IMG/VR virus record: IMGVR_UViG_3300042882_000943
Coordinates: 1 to 25,940 of that record
Reading direction: 5' to 3' (one strand)
DNA length: 25,940 nt
DNA from: a virus
The position numbers and the translations under genes were made by a program. Under the pieces are notes generated by a model that worked only from the letters and a program-made list of their open reading frames with translations, was not told where the DNA came from and searched no databases. This document shows positions 1,846-4,613 of this stretch, piece by piece. The stretch's first letter is position 1, and every line of letters starts with the position of its first letter.

Positions 1846-2166
1846 CTAGCTGTCGTGTCGTGATAGAAGGGTTGCCGCATCAAGCGTTGCCCTGCGGTTG
1901 ACCTTAAACCAAGAATTTAAATGGCCTACGACTAGGTGGCAACGGTCGCAAAATGTGCAAAGATTTTCTGGGTCAAGCTCTTTGGAAGGGTCGAGATGTA
2001 CCGGGCAAATGTGATGCACTTCAAGCGACTCAGTACGCCCGCAGGCAATGCAAGCCGGGTTGCTTTCAAGAAAACGCTTGCGGAGAGTCGCCCACCCCCC
2101 GCTGCGCTTGCCCTCAACAATATTGGGGGGCATAACCCCCCAAACGGTTAAAGGGTCTATCGACAT
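1846..2166 (-). CDS. HNH endonuclease
   Basis: This 106-residue protein has the layout of a small phage HNH nuclease. Two zinc-type pairs are visible, C39xxC42 and C73xxC76, around the H-N-H core: LEVHHI (H51, H52), N68 in DPENL, and H77 or H82 in CHLVVGHLNSW. It probably cuts DNA with a metal ion held by the HNH fold. The start is taken at the ATG at 2166, which overlaps the previous stop by 10 nt; an ATG 15 nt further upstream is possible. It is the last gene of the operon and lies next to the att scar. Phage HNH proteins often assist packaging next to terminase genes; here it is far from any visible terminase, so a homing or accessory role is as likely. Confidence 0.8.
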   Translation of the reverse strand: MSIDPLTVWGVMPPNIVEGKRSGGWATLRKRFLESNPACIACGRTESLEVHHICPVHLDPSKELDPENLCTFCDRCHLVVGHLNSWFKVNRRATLDAATLLSRHDS

Positions 2167-2402
2167 GAACCACCAGAGCAAGTAGCCGAGGAACCACGGG
2201 AACGATGCCCAAATAAATGGTGCGATCTATTGCCCACGGTGACTTTCACGGGGGGAGTAATCCCGCTACCGGAAACCGTTCTGACTCCTCGGCGTTTCAT
2301 GCTGGCTTCAGTTTCAACGGTTACAACCGCCCTTACCTTAGCCGCTGTTTGGCACTCCTTGCAATCGGCGTGGAGCGCAAAAAACAAAATGAAAGTAATC
2401 AT
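2157..2402 (-). CDS. small cysteine-containing exported protein
   Basis: The 81-residue product begins with a short hydrophobic stretch, MITFILFFALHA, that looks like a signal peptide, followed at once by a CxxC pair (C14, C17). The C-terminus is rich in Ser, Gly, Arg and Cys (C75, C80), a tail style I have seen in small planctomycete proteins. The start ATG overlaps the stop of the preceding gene by one base (TAATG), which supports translation. It sits in the lysis-like end of the operon. A spanin-type or envelope role is possible, but there is no good lipobox, and I do not recognise the family. Confidence 0.55.
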   Translation of the reverse strand: MITFILFFALHADCKECQTAAKVRAVVTVETEASMKRRGVRTVSGSGITPPVKVTVGNRSHHLFGHRSRGSSATCSGGSCR

Positions 2403-2722
2403 TATTTCTTCCCTTCAAGTAAAAGTTTCAAAAGCAAACGACTCACAATTTCCGCCAACAACGCATAAGGAATAAAGCCCCTAATAGCGGTTTGGTTTTG
2501 GCTGTTTTTCATTAGGTCTTCAATCAGTTGTGCCTCGGCCTCGTCGCCTGCAACAATGCCCACGATCTGCGGGCTGTCCGGTACGATATTGCCAAGAGCA
2601 TAACCACTGACAACCCAAGACGCATGAATTGCGGTTGAGGTATTCACGGGCTTGCCTCGCAGCTTGTCCATGACCACACTAAGCGCATAAGTCGGGAACT
2701 CTCCCGGGTACGGTACTAACAT
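2402..2722 (-). CDS. hypothetical phage protein, lysis-region neighbour
   Basis: This 106-residue protein begins with MLVPYPGEFPTYALSVVMDK. Its middle is acidic and its last 30 residues form a hydrophobic and basic helix (IPYALLAEIVSRLLLKLLLE). The ATG at 2722 is chosen; a TTG directly before it is possible. A purine-rich AAGGGGG lies upstream. It follows the papain-like peptidase by about 11 nt and is translationally joined (TAATG) to the next small gene. The C-terminal helix could lie on a membrane, so a helper role in lysis is conceivable, but no family was recognised. Confidence 0.6.
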   Translation of the reverse strand: MLVPYPGEFPTYALSVVMDKLRGKPVNTSTAIHASWVVSGYALGNIVPDSPQIVGIVAGDEAEAQLIEDLMKNSQNQTAIRGFIPYALLAEIVSRLLLKLLLEGKK

Positions 2723-2733
2723 CAAACACCCCC

Positions 2734-3618
2734 TTAAATCAGCCAGTGGATTCTCCGAAGTGGATATCCATCAACGGCCGAAAATGCCCATGAATCGCCT
2801 TGGCGAAGCATATTGTTTACTACATCCGCATCGGCCCAGAAGCCCGCCGTTGGGGGGTCGCCCGCCCCACTAGGCCCGGTGTGTGCATCGTCGCCCCATG
2901 AGTTGAGTAAAAACCCGCCTTCACGCTTGCCAGTCTGGTAACCAAGCAAGGCCATACAGTGACCCCACTCCCCAGATGGCTTTGCGAATCCGTCTTGGTC
3001 ACGGGTCATGGTGAAGCCCCTATCGGAGCAAACCGCAATACCAAAGCCGCTTGACAAAGCCTTCTTAGCCTCATCCCAGTCACGGACTAGGCTTGCTGTT
3101 TTGACTGGGTGTTTTCTGCACTCTGGTTCAAGCAGGTCGGGAACCCCATTACGGCCCCAATCCTTGCACCGTGGTTCTGAGTATTTGGTAAGGTCGAGCG
3201 AGTCGTAAATGCCACGGGCCAATACACCGTACTTGGTGACAAACTCGGCCGCCCAAGCCCCTACGCTGCCATCGCCCGATATTTGGTTGCGACCTATCTC
3301 AACCCTTGAACCGCCATAAATTTCTTCTTGGCAAAGCTCTCTGAACTCTTCGGGCTGCCCTGCCATGACTTCCGTAAGCATGGTGTGTTCAATTGCGCTG
3401 GCCGTGCCGAAGCTCACGCAACTTCCAACCGACCCTTGATTGCGCCCGGGCAACAAATGCCCCAATACTTGTTCGGCTGCTTTCCAAAGGTAGGCTTGCT
3501 CGCTGATTGCGCCTGCATAGCTGCCCGCTGCGCTTGCAAAGAACAAAGGCCTTGCTAGCCTGCCCATGACCGCTTGAACTTCCACCGGGTTTTGAACCCA
3601 TCCAAAATGGCGTTCCAT
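2734..3618 (-). CDS. papain-like (family C1) cysteine peptidase
   Basis: The 294-residue protein holds the full papain active-site set in the right order. NQGSVGSCVSF gives the oxyanion-hole Q61 and nucleophile C67, exactly six residues apart as in papain. GEWGHCMALLGYQ gives H220, and LLNSWGDD gives N239 within the usual NSWG motif. It would hydrolyse peptide bonds by thiol catalysis. No signal peptide or long inhibitory propeptide is visible; about 50 residues precede the domain, and the N-terminal HFGWVQ segment could be a short pro-region. It is joined by TAATG to the secreted Ig-like protein and follows a holin-like gene, the place where phages keep endolysins. I infer a role in lysis or in cutting the cell-surface protein layer, but virion maturation or defence against host proteins is also possible. 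Confidence 0.85.
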   Translation of the reverse strand: MERHFGWVQNPVEVQAVMGRLARPLFFASAAGSYAGAISEQAYLWKAAEQVLGHLLPGRNQGSVGSCVSFGTASAIEHTMLTEVMAGQPEEFRELCQEEIYGGSRVEIGRNQISGDGSVGAWAAEFVTKYGVLARGIYDSLDLTKYSEPRCKDWGRNGVPDLLEPECRKHPVKTASLVRDWDEAKKALSSGFGIAVCSDRGFTMTRDQDGFAKPSGEWGHCMALLGYQTGKREGGFLLNSWGDDAHTGPSGAGDPPTAGFWADADVVNNMLRQGDSWAFSAVDGYPLRRIHWLI

Positions 3619-4271
3619 TAGTTTAGCCCCCCCAAGATTTCTGCATAACGGTTAAAAAGCATAGCCGCCTTAGTTCGCACTTCAACCGTTAATTCTGCCT
3701 GTGGGTCGGTAGGTAGGTTGGCATCGATGTCGGCCGCTATTTTTTCACGAATCGGTAGTAATGCCCCGGGCGGTAAAATTTTTGCTGAACTTTGCTTGGC
3801 AATGGAAAAAAGCTCGCCCACGGAACGAATATCTATATCAGAGGACTTCTTTGCCATCTCCGCCCACAATGCCTGCAATGAATCTTTGAAAGCCTTTTTG
3901 CCCGCTGAACCGTCTGCCCCGTAGATGGCCTTGATTGCATTTCTGAGAGCGTCATCGGGTGCAGGTGGGTTTGGTTGCGGGTTGGAATCGCCCACTTGAA
4001 TAGCGCAGATTGAGGCCTCTGAGGGTACATCGGCGGCGGCTGTCCATGCAAATATTTTGTAATTGCCGGGAACGGTTGAACTGAAGATTGCCCACCTACC
4101 AGATTCCGAAACAATTAAATCCGCATCCTCCGAAGTGTTGGCCCAGCGAATTACCTTGCCTGCGCTGGTTGCTTCGATCTTGAGAAGCCTTCCCGGCTTA
4201 ACCGTTAAATCCTTGGGTATGTTGATAGCTGGGGCTTGCCCCAAAACTAGGGCCAAAAAAAGATGGATCAT
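3618..4271 (-). CDS. secreted Ig-like domain protein
   Basis: This 217-residue protein starts with a short signal-like segment (MIHLFLALVLGQAPA). Residues about 18-95 form an all-beta, Ig- or cadherin-like domain: DLTVKPGRLLKIEA, then GRWAIFSSTVPGNYKIFAW, ending ICAIQV. A proline linker (NPQPNPPAPDD) leads to a helical C-terminal half. The strand pattern and the phrase PGxYxxxAWTAA...VPS remind me of planctomycete phage-type proteins. A strong AAGGAG Shine-Dalgarno site precedes the ATG. It lies between the holin-like gene and the cysteine peptidase, which suggests a partner of the peptidase at the cell envelope, for example a binding or inhibitory partner. Function is inferred from context only. 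Confidence 0.65.
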   Translation of the reverse strand: MIHLFLALVLGQAPAINIPKDLTVKPGRLLKIEATSAGKVIRWANTSEDADLIVSESGRWAIFSSTVPGNYKIFAWTAAADVPSEASICAIQVGDSNPQPNPPAPDDALRNAIKAIYGADGSAGKKAFKDSLQALWAEMAKKSSDIDIRSVGELFSIAKQSSAKILPPGALLPIREKIAADIDANLPTDPQAELTVEVRTKAAMLFNRYAEILGGLN

Positions 4272-4275
4272 TGCG

Positions 4276-4566
4276 TTACTCCTTGCGCTTTGAACTCGGT
4301 ATATCCGTACGGCTTTCCCTTGATAGTTCCTTGCTCAATAATGCCGTTAATGTGCCAAGCTCTCGGGCCAGTTGCTCTTGACCGTTAGCTAGTGTTTTAA
4401 GTGTTTCCTCGAGATTTCCGAGGAATTTCATATGCCCCTCTTGAAGTGGAACCACCACACGATTGCCGAACCAAATCACCGACTGCCAAAAGCCGTAGCT
4501 GAAAACAAGTAAAATCCCCATCGGGATGCCCAGTTTTTCGACGATAGAAAAAAAGCTTGTTTCCAT
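4276..4566 (-). CDS. holin-like small membrane protein
   Basis: The 96-residue protein has one transmembrane segment (residues about 12-34, GIPMGILLVFSYGFWQSVIW) followed by a helical, coiled-coil-like part (about 45-82) with a charged end (SSKRKE). One membrane helix plus an amphipathic coil is the outline of BhlA/XhlA-type holins and related lysis helpers. The ATG at 4566 is chosen; an in-frame TTG at 4602, 11 nt after the preceding stop, is possible, but the extra residues are proline-rich and unlike a leader. No clear Shine-Dalgarno site is seen. It opens the lysis-like gene group. A membrane anchor for the neighbouring envelope proteins is the alternative. Confidence 0.55.
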   Translation of the reverse strand: METSFFSIVEKLGIPMGILLVFSYGFWQSVIWFGNRVVVPLQEGHMKFLGNLEETLKTLANGQEQLARELGTLTALLSKELSRESRTDIPSSKRKE

Positions 4567-4613
4567 CGGAAGAGGGTAACAAAAAGGCGGGGGGTAAAGC
4601 AAACGAGGGCGGA

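Follow-up and report, generated by a model that had tools for sequence, protein, structure and literature searches.

The gene at positions 2734 to 3618 of the window, the 25,940-nucleotide stretch of viral DNA analysed here (IMG/VR record IMGVR_UViG_3300042882_000943), encodes a papain-family (C1A) peptidase, hereafter C1. Its fold and catalytic triad establish this identity far beyond chance, while its catalytic activity is inferred. C1 is likely to be the effector enzyme of a host-lysis cassette in tailed phages of planctomycetes, where a papain-family protease would take the slot of an endolysin; both its activity and its part in lysis are inferences. The lysis role is proposed because C1 is a core gene, a sister branch of the family is membrane-anchored, a holin-like gene accompanies only un-anchored forms, the endolysin families searched are absent, and the hosts show a matching pattern of YTV wall proteins and MurG.

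C1 sequence, active site and fold

An initial annotation had called a papain-like cysteine peptidase at 2734–3618 with active-site residues Q61, C67, H220 and N239. Both claims held: the open reading frame bounds are exact, the strand is minus, and all four residues are present.

2734..3618, minus strand: C1A papain-like cysteine peptidase gene, 294 aa (Pfam, AF2 model and structure matches)
3436..3438, minus strand: codon of Q61, the oxyanion-hole glutamine, kept in 34 of 37 family members
3418..3420, minus strand: codon of C67, the catalytic cysteine, kept in 37 of 37
2959..2961, minus strand: codon of H220, the catalytic histidine, kept in 37 of 37
2902..2904, minus strand: codon of N239, the third triad member, kept in 36 of 37

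Residues 56–244 match the Pfam family PF00112 (Peptidase_C1) with an E-value of 1.8e-4 and a score of 22.1 bits against a cut-off of 20.7. Q61 and C67 are six residues apart, as in papain, and the order and spacing of Gln, Cys, His and Asn fit family C1A. The AF2 model of C1 (pLDDT 95.6, pTM 0.94) has xylellain as its top PDB match in Foldseek (3ois; E 1.8e-11), with cathepsins also close. VIA-align superposed 238 residues of the model on xylellain (Z 24.1, 2.8 Å, 18% identity), and a profile search linked the two proteins at E 4.6e-7. Family members share the motif IY(A/G)GSRVEIG...DGSxGAWAAEF. Conservation of the triad across homologues indicates selection for keeping C1 active.

The window copy has no signal peptide, and only about 55 residues precede the oxyanion glutamine. 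Pfam gave no I29 propeptide match in C1, and its N-terminal residues align in part to procathepsin chains in VIA-align. C1 lacks a cell-wall binding domain and has no useful PHROG match.

The C1 gene cassette

C1 sits in a cassette of co-directional genes, encoding in order a single-TM coiled-coil protein, an Ig-like protein with a signal peptide, C1, a 107-aa protein, an 81-aa Cys-rich protein and an HNH endonuclease.

4276..4602, minus strand: holin-like protein, one N-terminal TM segment followed by a charged coiled-coil tail
3618..4271, minus strand: Ig-like partner, 217 aa, with signal peptide, Ig-like domain (21–93), Pro-rich linker and five-helix bundle (108–214)
2402..2725, minus strand: 107-aa protein with a C-terminal hydrophobic segment, a conserved cassette member (29 of 80 loci)
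2157..2402, minus strand: 81-aa secreted Cys-rich protein, with DCKEC after the signal peptide and CSGGSCR at the C-terminus
1846..2181, minus strand: HNH endonuclease (Pfam HNH, E 6.9e-7), in 35 of 80 loci and often last in the operon

The placement of C1 between a holin-like gene and the end of the late operon, as originally described, held only in part: the immediate upstream neighbour of C1 is the Ig-like gene, the holin-like gene comes one position before that, and three further small genes (107 aa, 81 aa and HNH) lie between C1 and the operon end. The Ig-like/C1 and 107-aa/81-aa junctions are TAATG stop/start overlaps, and translational coupling of C1 with its neighbours is inferred from sequence alone.

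The Ig-like gene lies immediately upstream of C1 in 69 of 80 non-redundant loci; correspondingly, when only the Ig-like gene served as the query, C1 was the next gene in each of the 24 loci recovered. The partner model (pLDDT 94.5) comprises an Ig domain and a five-helix bundle, and in Foldseek the Ig domain resembles that of the lambda tail-tube protein gpV. Chagasin (I42) was not among the listed Foldseek matches of the partner, where other Ig folds rank higher; the idea of a chagasin-like inhibitor is thus unsupported by that list, though not excluded. One relative (L153, 7181–7963) carries a poly-asparagine linker of more than 30 residues in place of the Pro-rich linker of its relatives.

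The true start of the holin-like gene is probably the internal ATG of METSFF. Its product resembles BhlA/UviB-type holins in architecture alone (one TM segment and a charged tail). No Pfam holin match was found among the cassette and prophage neighbours, this product included, and the weak PHROG matches of the holin-like proteins include Rz-like spanins. Small secreted Cys-rich proteins similar to the 81-aa protein occur in L003, L078 and L385. The HNH endonuclease is regarded as a neighbour outside the proposed lysis mechanism.

Fuller lysis-like neighbourhoods are found in three host prophages (L178, L179 and L181), where small TM proteins and a lipoprotein adjoin C1. The neighbours of C1 in L002 show no sequence similarity to those in the window; the order of exported protein, C1 and small proteins is kept. 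In L182, L183 and L185, the ORF directly upstream of C1 joins holin-like TM segments to an internal lipobox (LAGC/LVGC), with a PKD/Ig-like domain as well in L183 and L185, an apparent fusion of holin and outer-membrane lipoprotein. In 17 of 80 cassettes (L017, L019, L082 and others), some 1.5 kb upstream of C1, there is a gene for a calcineurin-like metallophosphoesterase (~283 aa, identified by eye). A cluster beside the TM gene ('38/13'), suspected of being an endolysin, was set aside, as its sequences look like phage structural proteins.

At 1469–1514 on the minus strand, the window contains the 3′ portion of a tRNA-like element (GGTTCAATTCC T-arm and acceptor end). ARAGORN found no full tRNA in the window, and tRNA and Rfam scans of the window returned nothing at threshold. 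From sequence alone, this element looks like an attachment-site remnant, and bases 1 to about 1470 are therefore probably the host flank of a prophage. This presumed flank contains tandem repeats of CTTACAGCAGGAACTCCTCCCC and variants at about 300–560.

Distribution and core-gene status

C1 is not an oddity but belongs to a large family, whose members placed in genomes are planctomycetal. Progressively broader queries of IMG/VR returned 31, then 160, then 518 relatives; these sets overlap to an unknown extent, and the family numbers at least 518. In a genome collection, C1 matches fell in five MAGs, all labelled planctomycetes, and a survey of 392 Planctomycetota genomes found 13 with C1 at E < 1e-8. 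Several of these planctomycete C1 genes adjoin phage genes related to the window's own. Two family members used as queries found no relatives among 50,697 GenBank phages (INPHARED).

Core status was assessed with the major capsid protein as sole bait, and 26 of the records found, each of at least 20 kb, were checked for C1. C1 is present, at a distance of 16–19 kb, in all 10 records that run on for 18.9 kb or more past the capsid gene, and three more of the 26 also carry it. The remaining 13 have at most 17.3 kb of room after the capsid gene and are hence uninformative. As every capsid relative long enough carries C1, it is a core late gene at a fixed distance from the capsid gene, unlike an accessory gene. 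The idea of an accessory (moron) gene was set aside, the absence of C1 from some capsid relatives being explained by contig ends.

One 59.6 kb viral contig (G040, comprising L101 and L137) contains two C1 cassettes. In L031 and L032 the C1 ORF reaches 604 and 713 aa, apparently through a long N-terminal extension, and thioredoxin-like genes follow.

Cytosolic and anchored forms

In a sister branch, 53 of 54 C1 homologues carry an N-terminal TM segment or signal-anchor, which indicates that the envelope is the enzyme's intended destination. Such an anchor is absent from the window copy, which is not itself a SAR endolysin, although the anchored relatives would work like one; the C1 of L029 begins in a Tat-like manner (MDRREFIK). 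On a tree of 71 members, the cytosolic and anchored states must have been exchanged at least five times.

The holin-like family occurs near 43 of 59 cytosolic-form C1 loci versus none of 37 anchored-form loci (Fisher p 5e-14). The holin-like profile draws mainly on the cytosolic branch, which makes distance a confounder of this comparison. Anchored members inside the cytosolic branch (L026, L027, L034 and L172) also lack the holin-like gene. Exported thioredoxin-like proteins flank several anchored and divergent members (in L174, PF13899 at E 7.5e-8). Such a neighbour would, by inference, suit a thiol enzyme that is exported into an oxidising compartment.

Absence of the endolysin families searched

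The initial annotation had reported no muramidase, amidase or transglycosylase motif in the window, and this held for the window proteins scanned, none of which has a lysis-enzyme domain. Among long relative records, Amidase_2, SLT, phage lysozyme, CHAP, NlpC/P60 and M15_3 each matched 0 of 31, while control genomes were matched; the 31 records searched for Amidase_2 differed in part and included shorter ones. The annotation had named a separate endolysin as evidence that would count against a lysis role. A full Pfam scan of the near-complete relative G002 listed 18 families and no lytic family among them. In G016 and G025 together, 25 of the 35 Pfam families include no lytic family other than C1. 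Across the 31 records this absence covers the six families named above and leaves out other muralytic families such as Amidase_3, M23, GH19 and GH25; it is also limited by fragment records and by the sensitivity of Pfam, which would miss a very divergent muralytic enzyme.

Host wall proteins and MurG

YTV-domain wall proteins were found in 17 of 17 C1-positive genomes versus 3 of 48 controls (p 6e-13), and MurG was missing or weakly matched in 8 of 17 versus 3 of 48 (p 5e-4). MurG was not found in G032–G035, which hold C1 genes of the window's own branch. Both comparisons are confounded by host phylogeny, and the MAGs may be incomplete. Most Planctomycetales have protein walls with cysteine-rich YTV proteins and have lost peptidoglycan genes (PMC8567305); in Planctopirus, peptidoglycan genes are dispensable and a YTV gene is essential (PMC10632474). 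Some planctomycetes reportedly make peptidoglycan, and MurG is present in 9 of the 17 C1-positive genomes; a protein-only target therefore cannot be assumed for all hosts. One MAG labelled Candidatus Kuenenia (L033/G032) has YTV domains and no MurG, unlike the anammox planctomycete in the literature, and its label or binning is doubtful.

Proposed mechanism and alternative explanations

It is proposed that reduced, active C1 would accumulate in the cytoplasm late in infection, until the small holin-like protein breaches the inner membrane and gives C1 access to the envelope, where it would cut structural proteins belonging to the wall or the periplasm. The exported Ig-like/helical partner and the Cys-rich protein may assist in targeting, restraint or redox control. 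In related phages without the holin-like gene, the protease would instead be exported by its N-terminal membrane anchor, and the exported thioredoxin of several anchored cases might maintain the catalytic thiol in its reduced state or undo the disulfide links of wall proteins. There are no activity data, and the partner roles, like the protein substrate, are inferred. The lysis role, which the initial annotation had itself flagged as inference, has gained independent support; catalysis, substrate and lysis are still inferred.

A wall-protein substrate is plausible and, by inference, favoured over peptidoglycan stem peptides. The principal alternative, considered unlikely, is a lysis enzyme that acts on peptidoglycan, its papain fold turned to stem peptides as in CHAP, NlpC/P60 and C39-like domains. 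Other papain-fold families do cut stem peptides (PMC10318531), and the N5 domains of mycobacteriophage Lysin A are papain-family endolysin modules (PMC3314691). Further support comes from the nine MurG-positive genomes and from BFVD structural matches, one named N acetylmuramidase (fragment) and one peptidoglycan binding-like. Against it, the fold is that of classical C1A enzymes (xylellain and cathepsins), a protein-cleaving group, C1 carries no cell-wall binding domain, and MurG is lacking in the genomes of the window's own branch. A bolder form of the protease reading, rated somewhat less likely than not, holds that C1 is a true proteolytic endolysin of hosts that have lost peptidoglycan, which would cut a cystine-rich protein wall (e.g. 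YTV) as an exported thioredoxin or the Cys-rich protein breaks its disulfides.

Two non-lytic roles appear very unlikely. C1 could be an exported or cytosolic accessory (moron) acting in superinfection exclusion, lysogen envelope remodelling or counter-defence; its gene is distal in the late operon and close to the integration end, and a protease paired with a secreted Ig-like protein might change the surface of the host. Against this stand its co-direction and inferred translational coupling with its neighbours, its presence in every sufficiently long capsid relative, and the correlation of its form with the holin-like gene. Alternatively, C1 could be a virion maturation or tail protease working in the cytoplasm, as the window copy lacks a signal and follows tail-fibre genes, and the partner's Ig domain resembles that of gpV. 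A virion structural or maturation role was also the other counter-evidence named by the initial annotation. The signal-anchored homologues argue against it: an anchor in 53 of 54 sister homologues, like the partner's signal peptide, would be needless for a cytoplasmic maturation factor. In addition, G002 has a PHROG head-maturation-protease match among its other proteins. Points that weigh against the preferred lysis reading itself include the lack of a match between the holin-like proteins and any known holin family, and the chance that the anchored forms serve a non-lytic envelope function.

Significance and comparison with known systems

The means by which phages lyse bacteria that have little peptidoglycan, or none, is an open question, for which the C1 family is a concrete and widespread candidate. 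No paper on a C1 lysis enzyme in planctomycete phages was found in the open-licence literature searched. The active site of the family is defined, relatives of its hosts can be cultured, and the family contains its own contrast, between cytosolic forms with the holin-like gene and anchored forms. C1 can also serve as a marker gene by which phages from metagenomes are assigned to planctomycete hosts. If the lysis reading is true, the endolysin concept would extend from cutting glycans and stem peptides to proteolysis of wall proteins, with a bearing on what carries mechanical load in planctomycete walls.

In fold and in its Gln-Cys-His-Asn active site, C1 resembles the bacterial C1A enzymes xylellain (3ois) and Lpg2622 (6a0n); it differs from them in being a phage late-operon gene with its own conserved motif and no recognisable propeptide. 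Mycobacteriophage Lysin A, a phage lysis enzyme, likewise contains a cysteine peptidase of papain fold, its N5 domain (papain-family/C39-like; PMC3314691), but N5 is usually one module beside amidase or muramidase and binding domains, whereas the C1A domain of the window stands alone. Lambda R/S and P1 Lyz exemplify canonical and SAR holin–endolysin systems. The C1 family shows both modes of export, cytosolic with a holin-like gene or by an N-terminal anchor, but C1 is a protease rather than a lysozyme or transglycosylase, and an exported Ig-like partner is nearly always present.

PeiW and PeiP, the pseudomurein endoisopeptidases, are viral cysteine peptidases suited to a host without ordinary peptidoglycan; they differ from C1 in belonging to family C71 and in cutting pseudomurein cross-links. 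Cwp84 (4ci7), the S-layer-associated C1A protease of Clostridioides difficile, shares the C1A fold (Z 19.4 in VIA-align) and acts on an envelope protein layer. Cwp84 is a host enzyme for S-layer maturation and differs from C1 also in its lectin-like domain.
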